64,000 nucleotides of DNA from Xestospongia bergquistia (Eukaryota > Porifera > Demospongiae > Haplosclerida > Petrosiidae), in assembly GCA_963965975.1 (NCBI GenBank), contig OZ014411.1, forward strand, positions 27,266,249 through 27,330,248. The letters run 5' to 3'. Under the pieces are notes generated by a model. The model was not told the DNA's origin and did not search any database. It worked only from the letters and a program-made list of their open reading frames with translations. Positions 7,584 to 50,510 of this stretch are shown here, piece after piece; position 1 is the first letter of the stretch, and each line of letters begins with the position of its first letter. The translations under genes and the position numbers were made by a program.

Positions 7584-8529
7584 TCAGCGAATGTATATTT
7601 CAATAAAATCTATTAGTACTGCTTCATCACCATAGCCTTGATCATCACACAACCTCAGGTCAATGTCATCTTTAATTGTACTACCAAGTCCTCGATAGAA
7701 CCAGGGCTGTTTTGTATTATTACAACAAGGAGCTTCAGAACCCGGACAATCTTTTCCATCCCAGAGAACATCATTACCTGCTTCACAGTAGTAGTCATTG
7801 CCCACAAAGGAAGGAGGTGGAGGGTTACTACTTGTAGAGGGTGTTTCGCAGGGACAACGACCAGGATTGCCAGCATGACCAGCAGCATAAGTCCAGATAT
7901 GGTGACGAGGGCTATTACCATATGTTATAGAAACACCATCAACATAATATGTATCAATACGTTCTAGATTACTGCTATATCTATAAAACCCATCAGGACT
8001 CTTATATTGATATCCTCGAATCCGGCCACAAATTTTGCAATATTTCACTCCTAGAGAAGAGAAAGTGGTTGAGGCACAACCACCACTATATAAAGAAGAA
8101 GTTGATCGAACACACAATGGATGATCAATATTATTATATATGTGTTTTGTCAGTCCAGTAGGACAGGTAGCATTGGACTCAGTCATATCAAGATAACCCA
8201 CTCTAGTCCAACCACCTTCATCATCACAGTTGCAACCCTTCATATCACAGAAGACCTAAATATGTATTGTACTGTAAACATGGGGATATTTATGTACAGT
8301 TCTATCTTACCCAATGTTGAGTTTTTCCATCTGGATATATTGGATAACGACAACTTTTTCTTATACCCAAATCATACCAGTCCTGACAGCTTTTAGGTAC
8401 ATTACAATCTATTAATACAGGATTATTGATAATATATATTGATTTCATACCTTCACACTCTCCATTGACAGTAATGATAATAGTAGCTACTACAGCACAC
8501 AGGAAAAATACTGTGTTATAGTTCATCAT
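7584..8529 (-). CDS. Secreted cysteine-rich fibrinogen-like family, copy A, 282 aa
   Basis: Exons: 8451-8529, 8311-8408 and 7584-8255, with introns of 42 and 55 nt. A hydrophobic signal peptide (about residues 1-23, ending TVNG) leads into a CNVPKSCQDWYDLGIRKSC segment, then YPIYPDGKT..WVFCDM and GGWTRVGYL. That layout resembles the start of a fibrinogen-related domain. The C-terminal part has PRHHIWTYAAG, a Pro-rich NPPPPSF linker, a DVLWDGKDCPGSEAPCC motif and a terminal IDFIEIYIR. About 20 cysteines suggest an extracellular disulfide-rich fold. I recognise this as a family of uncharacterised secreted proteins common in sponges and cnidarians; its function is unknown to me. Three further members (B, C, D) lie on the opposite strand. 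If the 42-nt first intron is retained the frame stays open and adds 14 residues. Confidence 0.8.
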
Positions 8530-8675
8530 AGTGACTGTTTCAATTGAGATATAGGACTAGTATAATTGTTACAGTGATAGGGAGAGGTTTATTGGACAAT
8601 TTCAACGAGAAGATAACGAGCTTATACACAAATTGTAGAGGAAGCCAAAAAATACAAGGTATGTCAGTAAATCTT

Positions 8676-8684
8676 TTTTTAATA
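8676..8684 (-). promoter_or_regulatory. Degenerate TATA box of copy A
   Basis: On the minus strand the TATAAAAA box shared by copies B, C and D reads TATTAAAAA here, about 150 nt upstream of the ATG and within the same ctgctatact..gatttactgacat context. Promoter role is inferred by alignment with the paralogues. Confidence 0.4.
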
Positions 8685-9629
8685 GTATAGCAGGAAGCCC
8701 TTAACATTATTGTGGTCTCAAAAGTGTTTTTGATGTGGAGAAGAGTTGACCTGTAGTTTATACAATAAAGAAATATACAACTCAGCATATCCTGTTTATT
8801 TATAGTAATTTTCATTACATGTAAAAGTTCTAGAATGCCCTTGAAGGGATGTGGTAGTCTTTTGGCTATGGTACTATGTTCTCTCTCCACATCCTAACCA
8901 CAACCCTGACAATATAAACAACATTATTTAACAATGGGTAATTTGCTCACATAGGTTTAACATGCCATAGTAGGTTGTTATGGATATTATAGAATTGATT
9001 TTTATGTAGACTAAGTTGTTATAATGTTATATGTTAAAGGTAGACACTACTGACAGTTCTAAGGTACATACTTCACTTCATATATACCTTCACTGCACAT
9101 CAGTAATGACATCAGTTGTAAGTAGCTACTACAAGGCACAAAGAAAAACAATTAAAGTATTTATAATTCATAGTTTACTTTATTGTTAAATTATCTATAA
9201 AATACTAAAAGTATATTCAAGACAATATTACAGTGTAATTGCCTTTCACACTGATAAGTCTTGCTCCTCTTTAAAACTTTCTGTAGTTCTCATTTTCTGT
9301 TTTGAATGTTGTGCTATCTCTTATACCAAATCAATAACACTATATAATGATCATATAATCTTGTTTCAACTTTGAAATTTGTTTGATATTATACTCTATA
9401 AGTCATAAGTCAGATAATGTGATTATTGAAGATATTGTGTGAGCAAATTGCACAGTTGGTCCATTGCTAACTGATGATATAAGTATGACTAATGATATCA
9501 TTAAATGTGTAAGATGGTGTGTATGGTTTAGTAGTTGTATATACAATGATCATGTGTTAGGTACCTATGACATTACTGGACTGCCTACACTGACTTCATT
9601 ATTCACAGATTTATGAACTGATACATATT

Positions 9630-9703
9630 CTCTCCATTGACAGTAATGATAATAGTAGCTACTATACAGCACACAGGAGGAGTACTATGTTATAGTTCAT
9701 CAT
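9630..9703 (-). pseudogene. Orphan signal-peptide exon, A-D family
   Basis: On the minus strand this fragment has the ATGATGAACTATAAC start and the VATIIITVNGE signal-peptide coding sequence of the A-D family. An extra TA in the middle shifts the frame, and the sequence ends just after the signal peptide. It is preceded by the family's promoter block. A dead partial duplicate. Confidence 0.7.
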
Positions 9704-9916
9704 AGTGACTGTTTCGATTGAGATACAAGTTATATAGTGACAAGTTATATAGACTAGTAGTATAGTGATAGGGACTTTTTATAGTATAGCAGGAAGCCTA
9801 TCAAATTTTTGTTGTCCCAAATGTGTTTTCAATATAGACAAGTGTTGACCTGTAGTTTTTACAATAAAAAACTATACAACTCAACATATTCTATTTATTT
9901 ATAGTGTAGATTAGTA

Positions 9917-10037
9917 GATCAATTAATACAGGATTATTGATAATATATATTAATCTCATACCTTTACACTCTCCATTGACAGTAATGAAAATAGTAGCTA
10001 CTACAGCACACAGGATAAATACTATGTTATAGTTCAT
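9917..10037 (-). pseudogene. Orphan exon 1 plus first intron, A-D family
   Basis: ATG at 10037 opens an undamaged signal-peptide exon (MNYNIVFILCAVVATIFITV, then NGECK), followed by the family's 42-nt first intron. Homology stops just before the second exon. The family promoter block lies upstream. It could still be transcribed but has no cysteine-rich domain to attach to. Confidence 0.7.
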
Positions 10038-10709
10038 GATAGTGACTGTTTCAATTGAGATACAAGTTATATAGGACTAGTATAACTGTTACAGTGATAG
10101 GGAGAGGTTTATTGGACAATTTGAAAGACAAAATAATGAGCTATAAAAAGCTAAATGTATATTCAAGACAATATTATAGTGTAATTGCCTTTCACACTGA
10201 TAAGTCTTGCTCCTCTTTAAAACTTTCTGTAGTTCTCATTTTCTGTTTTGAATGTTGTGCTATTTCATATCAAATCAATAACACTATATAATGATTATAT
10301 AATCAATCTTGTTTAAACTATGATTTTGTTTGAGATTATACTCTACAACTCATAAGTCAGATAATGTGATTATTGAAGATATTGTGTGACCAAATTGCAC
10401 TGTTTGATCTATTGCTAACTGATGATAAAAGTATGACTAATGTTATCATTACACTGTTAAAAATGGGGTGTAAATATCGTATACCAGAGTGTAACTTATT
10501 CTTGGTTTAGGGGTGTAAATCTACCTTAGGGTGTAAAGTACAGCAGTTAGGTGTAAAACACATGCATTCACCATAACAATTGGTCAATGATGATATGATT
10601 TACTCTGCCTTTTACTTTTCTAACTCATAAATCTTAATTATCATAAATTATTATTAATAATTTATTATTAATTCATTTATTAAAATTAATTATTATTAAT
10701 TTATTAAAA

Positions 10710-11565
10710 TCATGATGTGAAATAATGTTTAGGAACTATACAGTGTATGACTGAATGACAAACAGGCATTGTTCTAATATGATGTGGTTGGAATGAAAAA
10801 AGGTCATTGTATTTGACTGTGGATTTAACTGAGGACATTTGAACAACAAAACAATGATAGTGATAATTGAATTCTAATGTGTTTAAAACTTGCACTTCAA
10901 AATAAACTTCATTATAATCAATGACAAATATATTGAGCAGCTTCCCAAACACAGGATAATCTGTGTCCATCTTCACCACCAAGGCACAAGACTTCTTGTA
11001 CAATGTGCCGTCAATGGACACCCATACAACCCTGTAATAAAGAATCACAAAATAACCTTATAAGTACTTGATGCCAAATCAGTGTGTGGTCAATACCAGA
11101 ATTTGACAAGATCGATTTCAATTCATCATGCAGGTCCATGAGTATATTTTGAAAAAAACCAGTTACATCCTTAAGAATTTGTTCCATTGTGGACTGAGGT
11201 AGTTTGTACATCTCTTGGACTTTTAAAATCCATGTAGCAGCAGCCCTTTTCTTTGAATACAGAATGGATGAGGTCATCTCTGGGTCATTGAATGAGTCAG
11301 TTTCACAATTCAACCAATGATCAGGGTCATCCTGATCTTGAAAGGTAGAACATTGAATAACAGGCTCAGAATCCGTATGAAAATCATACACATGATTTCT
11401 GTAAACTTCGAATTTTCTAAATTGTTTTCGACAACCACCGAGACAACAGGTGATACAAAATCCAGGTCTGTGTGCATGGACTTCTCGAACATGTTTAAGC
11501 AAGTACATGAGGCTTGGTACCATAAATGAACATAGTGGGCAAACTTTGATATTTCCGGGATCCAT
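10710..11565 (-). CDS. C2H2 zinc-finger protein of the transposon, probably internally deleted
   Basis: ATG at 11565. Two C2H2 fingers occupy roughly residues 8-65 (CPLCSF...HVREVHAH and CCLGGCRKQF...HVYDFH). A conserved helix follows (AAATWILKVQEMYKLPQSTMEQIL). A separate block at 10710-11040 encodes DGTLYKKSCALVV, YPVFGKL and NYHYHCFVV, which I recall as the C-terminal part of large (about 800-1000 aa) uncharacterised proteins in fish and invertebrates. The several-hundred-residue core expected between them is missing. The two blocks are joined by at most a small intron with a weak donor (GTCAAA, 77 nt) or a frameshift. It may bind the element's ends or be the crippled remains of its transposase. 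This reading rests on memory of the family and is inference. Confidence 0.6.
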
Positions 11566-11704
11566 GAGTTATCTGTTGAGAACGGTTTATGATAACTGCC
11601 ACCTGCCTTCTATTTTTCTAAACAGCATGGTGTTACGCATGCGCAAAACTTCAACCAGTTTTAGCACCTGCCTTAACAGCTGCACTCAGTCTCTCTACTT
11701 TTCA

Positions 11705-13561
11705 ATGGCGAGTTGCGTTGTATTGGAAGATTTGTCTGCTGATGAACTGTCTCTGTTCCTGTCATCCAAAGGAATCCCTCAGAAAGTTTTGGACAACTTT
11801 CAAAGCCATTCCATTGACGGAGAAACGTTTCTTTCTATGAGCGATGGACATCTCAAGGAAGTTGCTGAGAAAATACCCGATAGGGTCAAGTTGAAAAAGA
11901 TTATAGACAGTACAATATCTGCTAAAAAGGTCAGTGATATATTTTGTCACTATGTTATCTAGTGTTGACTGTTGCCCATCTGTGCTTGATATAAAGTTTT
12001 TCTCTAAAGCAAATTATCATAACAATTATCATTGCTAGGAAAACAGAAGTCTTGACGTAAATGGCAGTCATTGTTCCTCAACTTTAAATGTCCCATCTCA
12101 AAATTGGCATCACACATTTGTGATACCCTCTGCTTTCTCTCTCCGGACAGAGGAAGCCTTAGCCACTGGTCAGATCACTAGAAGAGTGAGAACAGAGATC
12201 ATCCAAGCTCTCTCAATGTCAATGATGATACATACAAGAACCCCTTCAAGTGATCAGTACAACACTGTGTGTCGTAAACTGATTGAAACCTATCCAATAC
12301 TTAAAGATGAAATTGGCTCTACTGGCTATGTAAGTGTGTGGTAATTTTTTTATTGTGAACTTGTTATGACTAAGAAATTGTTCATTTCTTAGGGTTCTTG
12401 GAAAAAAAAGCTACGGGACCGATTCAAGTTTCTTCGTCGTCCATCTACTTATAAAACAGATTCTGTTAGTATTGAGCCATCTCCAAAACGTCAGAAGACC
12501 TCAAAACGTCTTGGAAGTGACACAAGTACATGTGTGGATGATCTAGATGATGTTATGCTGACAACAAAATTGGCTGAATTACAGCACGAGTGTTCTAAAC
12601 GAAAAAAGGACCGTTCCCTTGCTACAATACAATCTTTGACCAGCAGCACATTTACTAGTAGACGGAAATGGATAACAAATGTTCAACCTCCAGTTGTAGA
12701 AATCCTCGAGCAATACCCATCATTGAAGATTCGGAAAGTAGTAAGTTATCTCTTAAAACAATTTAACATAGTAATTATTTTACACGTGTAAATTGCCTCT
12801 CTATTCCAGTTTAGGATGGAATTCAAAACTATTATTGGCTTAGATGAAAAGACTAGCATCCATTCACTCATGGAAAGTTGGCCAACATGGGAAAAAAGGA
12901 TAATTGCTTATTCTCGATTGGAATTCAAGCATAGGCCAAAACTGAAACAGCTTCTCACCACTCTTGATGAGCAAAGTGAAGGACTTGTGGATAAAGGTGC
13001 TTCACTATAATTCAAGTGAATACAATAACATGATTTTTTGTAATAGGTTTAGTAGCCTTTCAATTATTATCTGAATTGTTGATTCCTAAAAGCCGCCATG
13101 AGAGGCTGGTACAGTTTGTGAAGGTAATGTTAACTTTAGGTAATTGTTATGTTTTTGGTTGTGATTTAACAATTTGACTCAGAGATTTCCTCAAAATTTT
13201 TTTTAATATTCATAAAAGTTCTTTAATTTCACTTTAGAATTCAGATGACTTGGCAGTCTTTTCTGCAAAAGTTCAGCTCAGTGCTCCATACATGATCGTA
13301 TGCCATTCTGCTGAAGAGACCACTTTCCATATCATGGTAGAAGAAGAAGTCACATGTGAACTCAGTTCTTTTGAGAGTGCCTTGATCCACCTGGTTGGCT
13401 CTTACTTCCTTTATGATATAGCATACCCAAAGCCTGTCCAGTCGCTTTTATTAATGATCCAGCACTATGTATTTGGACTGGAAGACTCACAACAAGATAC
13501 CCCTGCAGTTATTGAGATTGTTACATCTCTAAAGAAGATGGACAGTATACTTTATAATTAG
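11705..13561 (+). CDS. SAM-domain protein (SAMD3-like) of the transposon, 483 aa
   Basis: Six exons join in perfect phase: 11705-11929, 12039-12329, 12393-12740, 12810-12996, 13047-13123 and 13238-13561. Residues about 5-70 form a SAM domain (LEDLSADELSLFLSSKGI ... HLKEVAEKIPDRVKLKKII). Next come a FVIPSAFSL segment and a helical domain ending YPILKDEIGSTGYGSWKKKL. A basic patch KRQKTSKRL is a likely nuclear signal. A TFTSRRKWI..QPPVVEILEQYP motif and a C-terminal MIVCHSAEETTFHIMVEEEV segment follow. I recognise this order from the many proteins labelled sterile alpha motif domain-containing protein 3-like in fish and invertebrates. It is intact and is transcribed divergently from the zinc-finger gene over a gap of 139 bp. 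Role in transposition is unproven. In-frame upstream ATGs exist but 11705 begins the SAM homology. Confidence 0.85.
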
Positions 13562-14733
13562 ATAATGTATAGTTTATTAGTTTATTATAGTTTAGTTTTA
13601 TTATAGTTTATTTATATAATGTATAGTTTATTAGTTTATTACAGTTTATTTATTATAACAGGTATGTATTATATTGAGTGTTTTATATAATAATAAAATA
13701 ATGTTACAGATTTCAATTTTAAAATAATTTTCCAATTTACACTTGAAAGAGTTGCGATATACACCAATATGGTGTAAATATCAGTCTTAGATTTACACCC
13801 TAGGGGTAGAGTTTTTAAAGTGTATGGTGCACACCTATTTTGGTGTAAATGTACACCCTTGTTTTAACAGTGTAGATGTGTAAGACAGTGCATATGGTTT
13901 AGTAGTTGTACATACAATAATCATGTGTTAGGTACCTATAACATCACTGGACATGCCGTAAGATGGACAGAAAACATCTGTATTTTCTCTATAAGAGTGC
14001 ATACACACATGTATGTCAGCTAAATAGAAAGCAACATTAACAAATTAACTATTAACATCTGCTCAGCTTGACTAATGACCTTTGAAATCTGTTAGAGTTT
14101 CATCATTTCAATAGAAGACAATAAAAAGTAATCAGACTCTATGACAACTGCTTCACTGCACTTTTTATACTCACTTCCTATAACTACAAGCCACGTCAAG
14201 TTAGTAATAACATTTATAACAAATATTTATTCAGGTTAGTGTAGAATATGACACTTTGCAAGAATTACTTGTATAATGAGTCAAAAAAAGAACTTTGAAA
14301 TTCTGTGAATGGGTTTAACGTGATTCTGAAGTAAAAATTATACCATAACAGATTTAACATATTATATAAATACATAAAGTCTCATAACAGTCTCAGACTA
14401 CTAAATCTAATAAACTATGGAGTACTTGTATGTATGGTAACTATCAGTAACATAGAAATGACCCATACATTAGAATACAACCATTAATACCACTCTACAA
14501 TATATATGGTCATTAAATTATGCTTAACTTACAGGTTGGAAGATATATCATGAATCAAATGACACTTACAGAAGTGAAATTAAATTAACTGATAAACTTG
14601 ATATACCATATTATATTTTATTATACCATTTAATAAACATAGGCAATTATGATAGAAAGAATAAGCAAAATGAATAATTAATACTTTATTCACAACTTAC
14701 TATAATACAGTATTAATACTAGTACTGATACTA

Positions 14734-15103
14734 TCATTGCACTTGTGTACTTGATTTTTGTACATAGTATAATAACATATTGATATCCTCTTGACCTCGG
14801 TCATCTGTTATTAAGAAAATGAATATACATATAAAACCAATCAAATAGTGTGTCATTAAATTAAAGTGAAGTATAGTGCAGAATAATTAGACATGATTTA
14901 ATAGATATGCTGATGATAGTGTATTACTGTTACTGATCAAATAGTGCGTTAACGTGAAGTATTGATTAAAATGGCAAGGCTAGTCACCGAATCTGTCAGA
15001 AAGTGATACATTCGCTGGAATTTATAAAGATGGGAATGTGATACAATTGCTTACCTTTCGCTTTTTTGCATTTATCTGGCAAATCCTTTGTAGTATCTTC
15101 TCC
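14734..15103 (-). pseudogene. Two orphan terminal exons inside the extra block of copy 2
   Basis: On the minus strand, 15055-15103 is bounded by cacatag and a GTAAGC donor, and 14734-14804 by a taacag acceptor and a TGA stop. They join in phase to give GEDTTKDLPDKCKKAKDDRG and then QEDINMLLYYVQKSS plus six residues. No upstream exon or start codon is present in the block, and I do not recognise the protein. It looks like the tail of a gene carried in with, or lost from, the neighbouring duplication. Confidence 0.35.
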
Positions 15104-15584
15104 CTATGTGTATTCGAGTACAACTCAGAGGGTTAAATTTACTGGCTTGCACTCACTATGGTCAGTGTGGTGATAAGTTGACTTAATTCATTGATATAGT
15201 CACACTCATTTGATAAGAATCATGAAAATGACCATGCAACTCAGCAGGAATACCACTTATCTTATAACACCATTGTATACATATAATATATTATGTAGCT
15301 GTTAACTAACTTGCACATCCATTCAACCAAACCTATCCTCCAAATAGTAATTATGTGCTAACAAGCTGTGATAGACACTCCCTTACCATCCTTTATAATA
15401 TCATTGTTAGGTATGAGCATGACTTCAAAATAATGTAGCAATGAGAATGGAATCATTAGTAATAACATAAGATTACACAGTCTTGTAAATAAATGTATAG
15501 AATAGTTTTTATTCATTTGCATCAGGTATGATTATAAGTAAATCAAATAATAATACAACATTGTTGAAACTTTAATTTCTATAA

Positions 15585-16048
15585 TTATATATTCAGGTTG
15601 GACAAATATTCAGCTATAGTATCGACAGCTTTATTACAACTGCCAACCTGTGAACCTTCAGGGCAATGTGCAATAACAATAGCTGTCTTTGATGCCTGAA
15701 GCGTGACAGAACCACATTTACCCTTTGCATAGACTATTTTCTTATCTTCCTCGCGTAGAAATTGAAATTTTATTCCTTCTAATACAATTCCACTTGTCAT
15801 GAAAGAGGCAAAGTCTTTACTTTTGAAACATTTAGCAATCTCACTTCTTTCTTGATCTGAAGGCTATACAAAATATTGTCAATATTTATTTAAGAGTTAG
15901 ATTTCACCTTTATTTTATTGCTACCGTTATTAGAAGTCCACTGACCTCCTCCATCAAGTCCTATAATACAAGCTTTATCGACATGTACTGCGCCTTGTGC
16001 ATCTTTGCTTTGAGCAATTAAGTTGTCAATATAAGAGTCCCAAGACAT
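15585..16048 (-). CDS. Profilin, second copy, 139 aa
   Basis: Exon 1 is 15908-16048 and exon 2 is 15585-15863, again with a 44-nt intron at the same place. The product matches the 5373-5839 profilin except for loss of one residue in the KGKCGS region and substitutions such as KIVY for EVVY, QVGS for QAGN, and SNLNI for STLNI. Exon 1 encodes the same protein as in copy 1. Both helices that form the poly-proline site are intact, so it should be functional. The frame is fully open and the changes are mild, which argues for a recent duplicate under constraint. Confidence 0.92.
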
Positions 16049-16115
16049 ACTTCATAGATCAGCTGCAGTAACTTATAAACGGAGAAATCAAGTAGACTCT
16101 AAGTATTATTTAGAG

Positions 16116-16143
16116 CCACGCCCAGCTAATATACTGGGCGTGG
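16116..16143 (-). promoter_or_regulatory. Palindromic KLF/Sp1-like element upstream of profilin copy 2
   Basis: Identical ccacgcccag / ctgggcgtgg inverted repeat at the same distance from the ATG as in profilin copy 1, in a flank that otherwise carries substitutions and indels. Confidence 0.55.
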
Positions 16144-17514
16144 TATATAAAAATATACTGTAAATGAAATTGCTCGTAGGAAAAGAATTACTGACTTTTT
16201 CTAAGTTCAGAGTACCTAAATTAAAAAAAAAAGATCAATAGTTTTAGTCAGTATAGCCACTTCTTTCTTAACAGCAATGGAATTTAAGTGACCAATTTGA
16301 AATGTCATATTTAGCACTGTAAAATGCTGCAAAAGGAAATTCCTACTAACTTCTGGATTCACACTTTTTAATGATAGTTAACACTTTCTATGTAATACCA
16401 ATGAAACATATGTATAACCAAAAGGAACTGGTCTGTCCTTATTTTATATATAACTATAGTTATAGTTCACTTGAAGTGTATTTATTATTAGATGATCTAC
16501 TAGATACCAATAAATTAAAGTAAATATAAAACAGTCAATATCATTGCAGTGTTATAACTAGGAGGCACAGGTAGGACAGAAAAAAATTAAATAGTTTCCT
16601 GTTCCATATCCTCATAGTAGTGTCAGTATCTCTAGTCAGTATCCCTCAGGCCAAATATTTGCTGCTTCTGCATGTATCCGTTCATTGGATTACTACAGTA
16701 TGTGCATTGTGATTAAATAGCAGGGTAATGAATTTAGCAAACACATATATAGCAATATCAAATACATGATTGCATTTAGTTGTGAAGTTAACAGTTGTGG
16801 TTGATTGTATAAGATTTGTACTGATTGTACAGGTTAATTGTATTTGTTGAACTAGTACTGGTGGTTTAGTTGTATTAACTATACTAGTTGTACCAGTTAT
16901 ACTAGTTGTGCTAGTTGTGTCAATAGTATTGGTTGAATGAGAAAACAGTGTGGCTATTATGCCAATCCCAAAAGACTTGGTTCATTGTGAAGCTTGCATA
17001 CTTTTCTATAGTTATCAAGATTTTAAACATCATGTCTGAAGGAAAGAGACACTTTGGGAGCAATAGGCAGTAAATGCTTCATTGATAAGCATATGAAAAG
17101 GAAGTCACACAATAGGTGGATAAAGGAAACCAAGTAGCTATCAGACTTATCATTAAGTGGACTATTTTCATTCAAACCACCTGAAACACAAAAATATCAC
17201 ATGGCCATGTGAGGATGCCATCAGAATGCCAGCTATTATAGGACAATCAGCTATTACTGAGCTAGTGAGCTAGAAGAGAGCTTTTTCACTCCATCCACAT
17301 TTAGATAATTTTAACATATTTAACTCAACTACAATCTCTTGAGACTATTCCACCTTCTAAAGATTATAGTAGACTACCACTTGTCAACAATACCTGTCAA
17401 CAATTGGAGATCTTGATTATCATATAGAAATAGAACAGAGAGGGACCAAATCATACGTTAAGAAAGAGAAGAGAGCAGCATTGTTAGCAGCTGATGAACA
17501 CATTTATTCCCATC

Positions 17515-17825
17515 CAGTGGCGGAGGAACCTATGAGGCACCAGGGGCACATGCCCCCCAAAAAATTGCAACATGATCATTTTTCCCCCAAAAATTTTACA
17601 CTGAAGTATGCAATATGTAGAGAGCAATGAAAAACACTCATTGTAATTATAATATAATTGTGGCAATGGGATATTTACTACATTCATTGTATATGTATTT
17701 ACATATACAATGAATTATAAGCGAAAAACAAAAACACTCCTCAGCTCCTTGGGGACTGTGCCCCCAGACCCCCTCCTTTGGTGCCCCCCCCCCCCCCCAA
17801 ATTCAAATATGTTCCTCCACCTCTG
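17515..17825. mobile_element. MITE with CAGTGGCGGAGGAAC-type ends
   Basis: The left end cagtggcggaggaacctatg and the right end, read inward, cagaggtggaggaacatatt form imperfect 15-bp terminal repeats. The interior has matching halves (ggggcacatgccccccaaaa on the left and a C-rich mirror on the right). No coding sequence. It carries a poly-C run of about 17 nt near 17784. I see no clear target duplication. Confidence 0.6.
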
Positions 17826-17879
17826 TTCCGGCTATCACCAACATTTCAAAAATTAATTGATGTTTATGACAAATGAGAA

Positions 17880-18500
17880 GGCAACTTACTGATTGCACTA
17901 TTTGCCTATGGCATCTCACTTAACAGGGCGCTTTTTGAGATGCCATTTCATTGAGGTACACATATGGATGGCAAATGTCTCTCTTGCCCTGTGTAAGAAT
18001 GTTGACAATCTCCTTAACTGTCCAGCTAGTGGCTTCCTAACCATACACCACAATGAGACTTTACTATAGGACATACTGTCTTTAACACTTCTTTAAAGTT
18101 GCCGGAATCTAATGATGGTCAGGTCTTCATTGTACCACACTTCAACCTCTCTCATGAACACCTGTCCTATAGTGCAACTAACAGAAAAGACTCTACATTT
18201 CTAGACATCAAGGTATATGGATTCAGGGAACATTACAAGCCTTCTATGTAAGGATTTTTTACTCTACATTACTCTCTTGCCAAGATATTCAGATGCATGG
18301 CTGTGTGTAATAGGCATCATGAGAGAGAGAAATGCCATGTCATAAGTAACAGGTCCATGAGGTGGAGCACAATAAATTTATTCAAGTGGTATTTTAGCAC
18401 TGCAGGAGGAATGGGAAGATCTGTCACTGTGCCCAAGACTAACAGTTAAATTGTAGCTAAACATGAGTACTCATATTGTGTTGTAATGGATTGATTGCAA
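17880..18500 (+). mobile_element. Degenerate retrotransposon fragment
   Basis: With frame breaks, 17930-18055 encodes a segment like the conserved LRY-x-W-x-x-LP ... VD-x-LLNCP-x-GGF-x-x-HHNE motif seen near the C-terminus of some reverse-transcribing elements. A better preserved relative lies at 31345-31600. The part from about 18180 to 18480 is repeated, inverted, at 32060-32430. Too decayed to name the clade. Confidence 0.45.
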
Positions 18501-18611
18501 ATGACACCTATCCTTCTCACTGCTTTGTTTCATGCCAGAGGATTCCAATTGAGACATGGATGTCCCATACATCCTTACCTCATTTCTTTCTTTCTTGGCC
18601 ATGACAATTCT

Positions 18612-18870
18612 ATATTAATAGTAGCTATATGCTCTCAAAGTGCTACCAATGTTAACAGCAATCATATGATATCAAAGTACCTTCGATGTTAATAGTAGCT
18701 ATATTCTATCAAAGTGCTACCAATGTTAACAGCAATCATATGATATCAAAGTACCTTTGATGTTAACAGTAACTATATGCTATCAAAGTGCTACCAATGT
18801 TAACAGCAATCATATGATATCAAAGTACCTTCGATGTTAATAGTAGCTATATGCTATCAAAGTAGTTGTA
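18612..18870. repeat. Tandem repeat, period about 75 bp, about 3.4 copies
   Basis: The landmark gctaccaatgttaacagcaa recurs near 18642, 18716 and 18790, each followed by tcatatgatatcaaagtacc. Copies are about 95 percent alike. No coding meaning is seen. Confidence 0.8.
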
Positions 18871-18899
18871 TATAATAGCCAGGTTACTCTTAGATTAAT

Positions 18900-20295
18900 T
18901 TTAATGATCTACAAGTATATGTGAATTAGAACATATATCACATTCTGTGAATAATGAGTCAATGTAGGCATGTCCAATAATGTCATAGGTACCTAACACA
19001 TGATTATTGTTTGTACAACTACTAAACCATACACACCATCTTACACATCTAATGATAACATTACTGATGCTTTTATCATCAGTTAGCAATAGATCAACTG
19101 TGCATTGCAATTGCTCACACAATATCTTTAATAATCACATTATCTGATTTATGAGTTGTAGAGTATAATCTCAAACAAAATAATAGTTTAAACAAGATTA
19201 TATGATCACTTTATAGTGTTAATGATTTGATATGAGATGGCACAACATTCAAAACAGAAAACAAGGACTACAGAAAGTTTTAAAGAGGAGCAAGACTTAT
19301 CACTGTGAAAGGCAATTACACCACAGTATTGTCTTGAATATACTTTTAGTATTTTATAGCTAATTCAACAATAAAATAGCTATAAATTATATAATACTGT
19401 ATTTCTTCTTGTATTTTGTAATAGCTACTTACTATTGTTATCATTGTTACTATTATTGTTACTATTGTTATATATGTTACTGTTATTATTGTAACTGTTA
19501 CTGTTACTGTTACTATTGTTAATGATGTGTAGTGAAGGTACATAAGAAGTCCTATCTTGCTTGGAGTGTGCACCTCAGGGTTGTCAGTAGTGGTATGATT
19601 TACTTAAAACCTTTCAACATGTAACATTATAACTTACTCTGCATGAAAGTCAATTCCATAGTGTCTGTAAAAACCTACAATGGCATGTTAAGCCAAAATA
19701 CTCTGTATTAAATATAATGTTATTTTTAATTGTCAAGCTAGGGCTGTGTTTAGAGATAGGAGAGAGTACAAACTTCCAAAGCCACAAGACCTCCCTTGAA
19801 GGCCATTCTAGAGCCTCTACTTGTAATGTAAAATTACTATACCTTCATCCAAAGTAAATCACTGATCTCATGATTACTTTCTATAATGTTATATATACTC
19901 AATCCATAAACAGTGATCATGTAACGATCACAAATTGACAATGTAATACAATATTGCTAATTTGCTAATAAAACACTTAGTACAAAACAATAGCTACTAT
20001 AGAAATTGAAACAATTACAGGAAATGTTGAGTTGCATAGTTCATTATTGTACAAACTACAGGTCGACTCTTCTCTACGTTAAAAATACATTTGAGACAAC
20101 AAAGATATGATAGGCTTCCTGCTACACTATAAAAAGCCCTGTGTTACTGACATACCTTGTATTATATTGCTTTCTCTCAATTTGTGTATAAGTTCGTTGT
20201 TTTCTCTTTCAAATTGTCCAATAAACCTCTCCCTATCACTGTAACAGTTATACTAGTCCTATATAACTTGTATCTCAATTGAAACAGTCACTATC
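18900..20295. repeat. Upstream flank repeat of copy B
   Basis: This matches, inverted, the DNA upstream of copy A and, directly, the DNA upstream of copies C and D. It holds a decayed first-exon remnant near 19400-19525 whose signal-peptide codons have expanded into GTTACT/GTTATT repeats and which still ends in a gtgaaggtacat-type splice donor context. The region 18950-19140 includes an unoccupied target site for the 10452-13872 transposon. Confidence 0.7.
20128..20136 (+). promoter_or_regulatory. TATA box of copy B
   Basis: TATAAAAAG lies 160 nt upstream of the ATG in a block conserved in copies C and D. A start site about 30 nt downstream would give a 5' leader of roughly 130 nt. Confidence 0.55.
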
Positions 20296-21244
20296 ATGAA
20301 CTATAACATAGTATTTCTCCTGTGTGCTGTAGTAGCTACTATTATCATTACTGTCAATGGAGAGTGTAAAGGTATGAGATTAATATATATTATCATGAAT
20401 CCTGTATTAATAGATTGTAATGTACCTAAAAGCTGTCAGGACTGGTATGATTTGGGTATAAGAAAAAGTTGTTACTATCCAATATATCCAGATGGAAAAA
20501 CTCAACAATGGGTAAGATAGAACTGTACATAAATATCCTCATGTTTACAGTGCAATACATATTTAGGTCTTCTGTGATATGAAGGGTACTAACTGTGATG
20601 ATAAAGGAGGTTGGACTAGAGTGGGTTATCTTAATATGACTGAGTCCAATGCTACCTGTCCTACTGGACTGACAAAGCGCATATATCATCAATATGAAAA
20701 CGTTCATTATCCATTATGTGTTCGATCAACTTCTTCATATAGTGTTGGTTGTGCCTCAATCACTTTTTCTTCTCTAGGAGTGAAATATAGCAAAATTTGT
20801 GGCCAGATTCGAGGATATGCATATTTGACTCCTGATGCTTTTTATAGATATGGCAGTAATCTAGAACATATTGATACATATTATGTTGATGGTGTTTCTA
20901 TAACATATGGTAAAAGCCCTCGTCACCATATCTGGACTTATGCTGCTGGTCATGCTGGTATTCCTGATCGTTGTCCCTGCGCAACCCCCTCTACAAGTAA
21001 TAACCCTCCACCTCCTTCCTTTGTGGGCAATGACTACTACTGTGAAGCAGGTAATGATGTTCTCTGGGATGGAAAAGATTGTCCGGGTTCTGAAGCTCCT
21101 TGTTGTAATAATACAAAACAGCCTTGGTTCTATCGAGGACTTGGTAGTACAATTAAAAATGACATTGACCTGAGGTTGTGTGATGATCAAAGCTATGGTG
21201 ATGAAGCAGTATTAATAGATTTTATTGAAATATACATTCGCTGA
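20296..21244 (+). CDS. Secreted cysteine-rich fibrinogen-like family, copy B, 283 aa
   Basis: Exons: 20296-20371, 20414-20511 and 20567-21244. The signal peptide (about residues 1-22) is followed by CNVPKSCQDWYDLGIRKSC, then the WVFCDM / GGWTRVGYLNM block that resembles the opening of a fibrinogen-related domain. HHIWTYAAG, a Pro-rich spacer, DVLWDGKDCPG, CCNNTKQPWFY and a closing IEIYIR follow. An AATAAA lies at about 21289. All cysteines of copy A are retained apart from one in the KYCKIC segment, which reads KYSKIC here. The 42-nt first intron is stop-free and in frame, so unspliced mRNA would encode 14 extra hydrophobic residues. Function unknown; an extracellular recognition or matrix role is only a guess from the fold type. 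Confidence 0.8.
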
Positions 21245-21474
21245 AGAGCCAACATCATTCAAACATTGCTATAACTTTAACTTTGAAAATAAACTTTATA
21301 TATTAGTTTAGTTTTAGGTGAGATGTTATTTTGAGATTTTGTTTAATACTTTATTTAGTTTTAACCTCTTTTATATTTGTAGTGAACTATTTACAGAAAT
21401 AAATTTTGTATACTCATGAAATTTAAGTACAGCCTTGATGACATGACTGGACATGCTTATATAGGATATTGTTA

Positions 21475-21945
21475 TAACTCAAGTCAATTTGACAAGCAAG
21501 TAATCATAAGTGGTTCTCTATTTTCTGAATCTCAAGTCACCTCTGATGTGTCTCAAGGTTCTATTTTTAGGCCTCTCTTATTCATCATTCATATAAATGA
21601 CATTGCTAAACTACCCCTCCTCTCTTCACCCACTTTATGCTGACGACATTCTTCTATCTCAATAAATCTCTTCTCCAACTTCAAAGTCCACAGTTCAATC
21701 CAAATTACATCATGGATGTAATTTGGATTGAACTGTGGACTTTGAAGATTGTGCCCTTTAAACTAGCAGTAGCTATCAGCTAAGAGAAACTGCTTATTCC
21801 ATTTAATCACCACTTACTTCTATCTTTAGTCTGTCGATTAAGTCTGGTATCTTTCCTGACGACTGGAAAAATTCTCATATTATCCCTATATCAAAGTACT
21901 CTTCAGCTCCATCTTCTCCTACAGGTTATTGTCCAATATCTCTAT
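21475..21945 (+). mobile_element. Shuffled non-LTR reverse-transcriptase fragments
   Basis: 21500-21680 encodes a decayed QVTSDVSQGSIFRPLLFIIH motif, the RT block normally reading SGVPQGSVLGPLLF. 21815-21950 encodes GIFPDDWKNSHIIPISK and YCPISLY, which in intact elements precede the first block. The order is therefore reversed. A perfect palindrome (21679-21747) lies between them. This debris separates the B and C duplication units. Confidence 0.6.
21679..21747. repeat. Perfect 33-bp inverted repeat with 3-nt loop
   Basis: The arm cttcaaagtccacagttcaa... (21679-21711) is followed by atg and its exact reverse complement (21715-21747). A DNA or RNA hairpin of 33 base pairs would form. Confidence 0.9.
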
Positions 21946-23199
21946 ATCATCAGTTAGCAATAGAACAAACTGTGCAATTTGCTCACACAATATCTTCAAT
22001 AATCACATTATCTGACTTAAGAGTTGTAGAGTATAATATTAAACAAAATGATAGTTTAAACATCATTATATAATCATTTTATAGAGTTATTTATTTGATA
22101 TAAAAGATAGCACAACATTCAAACAGAAAACAAGGACTACAGAAAGTTTTAAAGAGGAGCAAGACTTATCAGTGTAAAAGGAAATTACACTTCAATATTG
22201 TCTTGAATATACTTTTAGTATTTTATAGCTAATTCAACAGTAAAATAAGTTATATAATCTCCTTGTGCCTTGTAATAGCTACTTACTATTGTTATCATTG
22301 TTACTGTTATTGTTACTATTGTTATGTTACTGTTACTGTTACTGTTACTATTAATGTTACTGTTATTATTGTTGTTACTGTTACTATTGATGTTACTGTT
22401 ACTATTGATGTTACTTCTGTTAATGATGTCTAGTGAAGGTACATAAGAAGTCCTAGCTTGCTTGGAGTGTGCACCTCAGGGTTGTCAGTAGTGGTATGAT
22501 TTACTTTCAACATGTATAAATTATAACTTACTCTACATGAAAGTCAATTCCCTAGTATCTGTAAAAAACTATTATGCCATGATAAGCCTATGTGAGCAAA
22601 TTACTCAGTGTTAAATATAATGTTATTTTTAATTGTCAGGCTAGGGCTGTGGTTAGATATAGGAGAGAGTAGAAACTACCAGAGCCACAAACTCCCACAT
22701 CCCTTCAAGGCCATTTCAGAGCTTCTACTTGTAATGGAAAATTACTATAGCTTCCATAAAGCACTGATCTTATAAAATCATGATTACTTTCTATAATGTT
22801 ATATATACTCAATCTATAAACATTGATTATGTAATGATTACAAACATCATGTTAACAATGTAATGCAATATTGGTAATTTTACTAATAAAACACTTAGTA
22901 CAAAACAATAGCTACCATAGACATTGAAACAATTACAGGAAATGTTGAGTTGCATAGTTCGTTATTGTACAAACTACAGGTCAACTCATTAAAAACACAT
23001 TTGGGACCACATAAAATGTGATATGCTTCCTGCTATGCTATAAAAAGCCCTGTGTTACTGAGATTTTATATGCTTTCTCTACAATTTGTGTATAAGCTTA
23101 TTGTTTTCTCTTTCAAATTGTCCAATAAACCTCTCCCTATCACTATAACAGTTATACTAGTCCTATATAACTTGTATTTCAATTGAAACAGTCACTATC
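21946..23199. repeat. Upstream flank repeat of copy C
   Basis: Direct repeat of the flank upstream of copy B. It includes a decayed exon-1 remnant at about 22258-22440 that is now mostly GTTACT/ATGTTACT microsatellite and ends in the same tagtgaaggtacataagaag sequence as at 19530. Confidence 0.7.
23039..23047 (+). promoter_or_regulatory. TATA box of copy C
   Basis: TATAAAAAG at the same spacing from the ATG (about 160 nt) as in copy B. Confidence 0.5.

Positions 23200-42337: not shown

Positions 42338-50510
<8,173 letters not shown>

Follow-up and report, generated by a model that had tools for sequence, protein, structure and literature searches.

A probable internally deleted copy of a young two-gene CMCT transposon in the sponge Xestospongia bergquistia

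Introduction

CACTA elements carry subterminal repeats. The RAG1-like core of the clade to which they belong, EnSpm/CACTA-Mirage-Chapaev-Transib (CMCT), cuts CA..TG ends using D, D and E, and the target duplication of Transib is 5 bp. Here, we describe a locus with features of this clade in a 64,000-nucleotide stretch of DNA (the window) from the sponge Xestospongia bergquistia (assembly GCA_963965975.1, contig OZ014411.1, positions 27,266,249 to 27,330,248 of the forward strand). The locus, window positions 10452-13872 (3421 bp), is a copy of a cut-and-paste DNA transposon with two genes placed head to head.

In the available part of PMC12730594, the residues D, D, C(2)C, H(3-4)H and E are described as the signature of EnSpm/CACTA, Mirage, Chapaev, Transib and RAG1, and the target duplications of the CMCT clade as 2 to 5 bp in length. 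The same excerpt describes ESTA, fungal EnSpm-like transposons with TA duplications, and an 8-bp duplication for Zisupton of the KDZ group. EnSpm/CACTA elements proper end in CACTA..TAGTG and, when full-length, have a second open reading frame that supports excision and transposition in specific families, as stated in the accessible sections of PMC4158355.

Results

The element in the window is very probably an internally deleted, non-autonomous copy of a young two-gene CMCT transposon. Compared with copy L050 of the same family it has 0 substitutions and lacks 2332 bp, the full copies being 5753 bp long; a 2-bp CA is common to both break points of the deletion. In full copies the minus-strand gene consists of ten exons and, according to our exon model, has a product of 818 aa, the first 65 residues of which form two C2H2 fingers. 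In the window copy, exon 1 with both fingers runs into the deletion junction. The initial annotation had recognized the two fingers and the missing core of the C2H2 protein correctly, but had described the transposon as one with no recognisable transposase. This does not hold for the element as such, since the C2H2 protein is an EnSpm/CACTA-like (CMCT) transposase.

The protein collection contained 65 relatives of this transposase at E ≤ 0.001, most of them unnamed; those with names belong to corals, sponges, ticks, a spider, a sea urchin and fish. When the query was aligned with 12 relatives picked by length, D291, D384, C404, C407, H616, H620 and E640 of the core and C9, C12, H25, H30, C40, H58 and H63 of the fingers were invariant. 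In a wider set of 54 of the 65 relatives, many of them partial, the first D never varied and conservation reached 90% or more at the core's remaining catalytic and zinc positions, while the finger residues were not among the positions reaching 90% in these often partial sequences. For a relative, P0001 (35% identical), the modeled catalytic fold is RAG1/Transib-like, with an identity of about 11% in the structural alignments, and the C-terminal domain is predicted from a modeled relative to be BAH-like. The D/D/E alignment and this model agree with the RNase-H-like DDE core that had been anticipated for full-length relatives.

Pfam detected Transposase_21 in six, DUF4218 in two and Plavaka in one of the 54 relatives. 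The only match of the element's own transposase was to DUF4218 and was weak (E 0.1), so that the protein is overlooked on casual inspection. None of the 39 Transposase_21 matches in the genome was inside an element copy. Some of these matches are in long open frames (C8:1281067, 1021 aa; C4:7501877, 701 aa), and one is near a same-strand SAM match (C1:16786107 and 16790187). The exon 5/6 junction of the transposase gene is uncertain: the GT-AG reading loses a nearly invariant Gly, and an alternative GC-AG reading yields LEGTKYETKELL, which is near relatives such as P0002.

The boundaries of the element were examined by joining its 100-bp flanks without the element and aligning the product. The joined flanks aligned over the junction with two places in the window (Table 1), each with one TA; another contig holds a third such place, at 80% identity. 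Both boundaries, and the length of the duplication (2 bp), follow from these paralogous empty sites, which are available because the element was inserted in one repeat of a nest of direct and inverted repeats at 8000-22500 (80-420 bp, many at 85-96% identity). The terminal inverted repeat CACTGTTAAAA alone is indecisive: with one mismatch allowed the window has eight matches, and 4 of 100 shuffles give at least as many. The extended end pattern CACTGTTAAAANNNGGGTGTA is decisive, with 44 matches in the 146-Mb genome versus 0 for the reversed control, and its matches fall where the end-sequence searches list ends of element copies. The subterminal repeat GGTGTAAA is mildly frequent in the window (n = 7; shuffle mean 3.45, with 4 of 100 shuffles reaching 7), and all seven occurrences lie within 106 bp of the element's two ends. 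Both the 11-bp terminal repeats and the subterminal repeats had been seen in the initial annotation and stand. A third exact CACTGTTAAAA, in minus-strand orientation at 48401-48411, has no subterminal GGTGTAAA repeats next to it.

Searching the host genome with the element's ends, as had been suggested, gave 22 whole-length matches at ≥95% for the first 301 bp and 24 nearly whole matches at ≥97% for the last 305 bp, the window's own included in each case. Twenty copies were fetched and analyzed together with that of the window. In all 21 the 11-bp ends are identical and the target duplication is 2 bp, being TA in 14, CA in five and TG in two, a pyrimidine-purine (YR) step every time; a third duplicated base was matched in none of the 20 fetched copies. 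The TA duplication reported at first is thus right in length and for the window copy, but TA is not used throughout the family. The 400-bp flanks of the fetched copies had no mutual similarity at E 1e-8. The youngest group comprises 13 copies, that of the window among them, with 0-5 pairwise substitutions, and the six of them that have no long deletion measure 5749-5753 bp; the eight other copies are 34-85 substitutions away from the majority. The family was recently active and its spread is recent.

Under the canonical exon model, 6 of the 21 copies have an intact transposase frame, 14 an intact SAM gene frame and 5 both. Copies L059 and L061 are the same in sequence and have in common three exon deletions in the transposase gene, which are also present in L062, yet they occupy unrelated sites. 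The pairs L063/L064 and L065/L066, with 1 and 0 substitutions, respectively, likewise have common lesions in both genes at unrelated sites. This indicates that defective copies were moved by proteins from other copies; gene-defective copies have spread in trans, the route that had been proposed for the window copy. The latter may have spread when already deleted, or its deletion may postdate the insertion. As it retains an intact SAM gene and both ends, it could be moved only by a transposase from an intact sister copy.

The plus-strand SAM gene has, as annotated, six exons, here with GT-AG introns, and a stop-free product of 483 aa. The SAM domain ascribed to it proved to be a weak match, Pfam SAM_2 giving an E-value of 0.038 and 14.6 bits, under the curated cut-off of 20.5. 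SAM chains of the PDB matched weakly as well (E 0.41 and 0.77). Judged by its sequence, the product probably carries an N-terminal SAM-like domain. Three relatives were found among 7997 scored candidates. One of them, P0067 of the sponge Dysidea avara, is named "sterile alpha motif domain-containing protein 3-like" and is 31% identical over 62% of the query; its contig and that of the transposase relative P0003 are equal in size (14,207,406), which hints that the two are on the same chromosome. Conservation in the SAM protein is highest in a helical middle domain, for which a fold search gave no convincing match. The motif P.LKD.IG, followed by GYGSWK..LR, is identical in the three SAM-protein sequences compared.

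Near-identical copies of each gene number about 20 in the genome. In 18 of the 20 fetched copies both genes are kept, at least largely, head to head, and the remaining two have gross deletions. Of at least 18 diverged SAM loci in the genome, two (L070 and L069) were read, and both hold the pair head to head. L070 (1196-6641) includes the fingers, the core and the second gene, with the transposase pieces 25-51% and the SAM protein pieces 24-34% identical, between the ends CAATGTTAAAACAGGGGTGT and CACTGTAAAAACAAAGGTGT; it is an old copy with stops, now flanked by the dinucleotides CA and TA. L069 contains the SAM gene, with pieces at 29-69% identity, together with the C2H2 start of the transposase at 49-52%, and in the 7.5 kb read neither the transposase core nor recognised ends were present. 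Retention of the pair in the window, in the 18 copies and in both diverged loci makes the SAM gene part of the element, in agreement with the earlier idea of one gene set.

Two further observations concern the diverged loci. The ends of L070 (1196-1230 and 6607-6641) have GGTGT then ACACC, a small palindrome that the young family likewise carries at its right end, GGTGTACATTTACACC, and that is possibly the core binding unit. Among the matches listed, eight diverged SAM-gene loci, L069 included, are located within 1.5 Mb of a single chromosome (C1:9.6-11.1 Mb), three on the plus strand at 9.6-9.8 Mb and five on the minus strand at 10.9-11.1 Mb, and the young copies are scattered. The cluster is possibly a region retaining old copies, or the result of local or inverted duplication.

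The features of the window copy are listed in Table 1. The spacer between the two start codons presumably acts as a shared bidirectional promoter. Elsewhere in the window are a tandem array of about 92 copies of the 13-bp unit GTATATTGTACAT (48495-49686) and six copies of a 56-bp unit with 99% match (44103-44451).

Table 1. Features of the element copy and its empty target sites, in window positions.
Feature	Position	Strand	Basis
2-bp target duplication, left copy (TA)	10450..10451	.	flank comparison; single TA in two empty sites
Left terminal inverted repeat CACTGTTAAAA, 11 bp	10452..10462	+	
Four subterminal GGTGTAAA repeats (starts 10467, 10512, 10530, 10550)	10467..10557	+	
Transposase exon 10 (last), predicted BAH-like C-terminal domain; separated from exon 1 by the deletion	10710..11031	-	exon model; fold from modeled relative
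Internal deletion junction	11079..11082	.	comparison with full copies
Transposase exon 1 remnant: start codon and two C2H2 fingers	11080..11565	-	exon model
139-bp spacer separating the two start codons	11566..11704	.	gene models
SAM gene exon 1 (probable SAM-like domain)	11705..11929	+	exon model, profile search
SAM gene exon 2 (first part of conserved helical middle domain)	12039..12329	+	
SAM gene exon 3 (last part of middle domain, plus basic linker)	12393..12740	+	
SAM gene exon 4	12810..12996	+	exon model
SAM gene exon 5	13047..13123	+	exon model
SAM gene exon 6, including stop codon; conserved C-terminal domain	13238..13561	+	
Three subterminal GGTGTAAA repeats (13771 +, 13792 -, 13842 +)	13771..13849	.	
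Right terminal inverted repeat CACTGTTAAAA, 11 bp	13862..13872	-	
2-bp target duplication, right copy (TA)	13873..13874	.	flank comparison
Empty target site, paralogous, 91% identical to joined flanks	9405..9585	+	
Second empty target site, paralogous, 89% identical to joined flanks	18967..19152	-	

Discussion

The element has the marks of the CMCT clade: a DDE transposase with C(2)C and H(3-4)H between the second D and E, 5'-CA..TG-3' ends, a target duplication within 2 to 5 bp and, on the model of P0001 rather than of its own protein, a RAG1/Transib-like catalytic fold. In the mechanism that we propose, the minus strand of the full copy would provide a transposase with two C2H2 fingers, a DDE core of RAG1/Transib fold and a BAH-like C-terminus, and the divergent plus-strand gene would provide the 483-aa protein with its N-terminal SAM-like domain. 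The transposase would cut at the CACTG ends, and the GGTGTAAA repeats would be read by the fingers, by the SAM protein or by both. The SAM protein could be a TnpA-like accessory factor, binding or bridging the subterminal GGTGTAAA repeats and bringing the ends together in a pair via SAM-SAM contacts. By analogy with the second protein of CACTA elements, we lean towards the SAM protein being a partner in transposition.

Whether the element belongs to EnSpm/CACTA proper is close to evenly balanced, with slightly less weight on the alternative that it represents a lineage outside it, for instance one akin to ESTA or Mirage, or an animal CMCT branch without a name that makes 2-bp duplications. This alternative is favored by the ends, which are CACTG..CAGTG and not those of CACTA, and by the duplication, which is 2 bp in every copy and in the empty sites and not the 3 bp of EnSpm/CACTA; nor is it the 5 bp of Transib/RAG. 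The few relatives recognised by Transposase_21 (6 of 54) and the location of all its own-genome matches outside the copies point the same way, and the range of CMCT duplications in the available part of PMC12730594 accommodates 2 bp. No observation against this alternative distinguishes between the branches. The length of the duplication also speaks against Zisupton (KDZ group).

It is possible, though clearly less probable than a role as partner, that the SAM gene is a passenger or a self-regulator (a repressor or silencing antagonist), with the C2H2 transposase alone cutting and joining and its fingers reading GGTGTAAA. The transposase does have fingers and a RAG1-like core of its own, copies with a broken SAM gene have spread too (L063/L064 and L065/L066), and transposons may bear non-transposase genes such as the TET/JBP dioxygenase of fungal EnSpm, Plavaka and ESTA, according to the excerpt of PMC12730594. 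However, the pair is head to head in two loci that have diverged to identities of 25-52% in the transposase pieces and 24-69% in those of the SAM protein, and the second frame of CACTA supports excision in some families, as far as the accessible sections of PMC4158355 describe. The SAM frame is also intact more often than that of the transposase, but this is a weak point as the transposase gene is longer. That an unrelated non-autonomous element captured a host head-to-head gene pair, as the missing transposase core of the window copy and the host-style name of P0067 might suggest, is refuted by the full-length copies, whose C2H2 gene itself encodes a complete DDE transposase, and is made extremely improbable by the many near-identical copies of each gene and by the same pair inside similar ends in L070.

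The apparent "transposon without a transposase" is therefore a deletion copy of a recently active family, and one genome holds both intact sister copies and natural defective copies that show trans mobilisation. It offers a concrete system for two questions: the function of the second protein in such CACTA-like elements, and the presence or absence of a built-in chromatin-reader domain in a RAG1-fold transposase. A further suggestion is that some animal genes annotated as "SAMD3-like" or as uncharacterized C2H2 may be transposon genes. More speculatively, and on balance improbably, there could be an animal two-gene lineage in which a RAG1-fold transposase with its own chromatin-reading BAH module and a dedicated SAM partner that assembles the ends are an independent second solution to the problem for which RAG1/RAG2 use a separate reader protein, some SAMD3-like animal genes being domesticated or live transposon partners.

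Among known systems, the element resembles EnSpm/CACTA in its CACT.. ends, its two genes, its DDE transposase with C(2)C and H(3-4)H, the presence of Transposase_21 and DUF4218 in some relatives of that transposase, and its subterminal repeats. It differs in its 2-bp YR duplication, in the SAM-like domain of the second protein, and in the N-terminal C2H2 fingers and C-terminal BAH-like domain of the transposase; its two genes are divergent, a description of this element alone. From RAG1, ProtoRAG and Transib it is set apart by the 2-bp duplication, by the low identity of the structural alignments and by a second protein that is SAM-like, a statement about this protein rather than a direct comparison with RAG2. 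With ESTA it has in common an EnSpm-like transposase and 2-bp TA duplications, whereas its duplication can also be CA or TG, and the likeness is one of description. The animal SAMD3-like proteins are linked to it by P0067, through its name and its match to the SAM protein. A relative may already be listed in Repbase. The kind of element is known, and the SAM partner, the 2-bp targets restricted to YR and the BAH-like tail make it an unusual variant.
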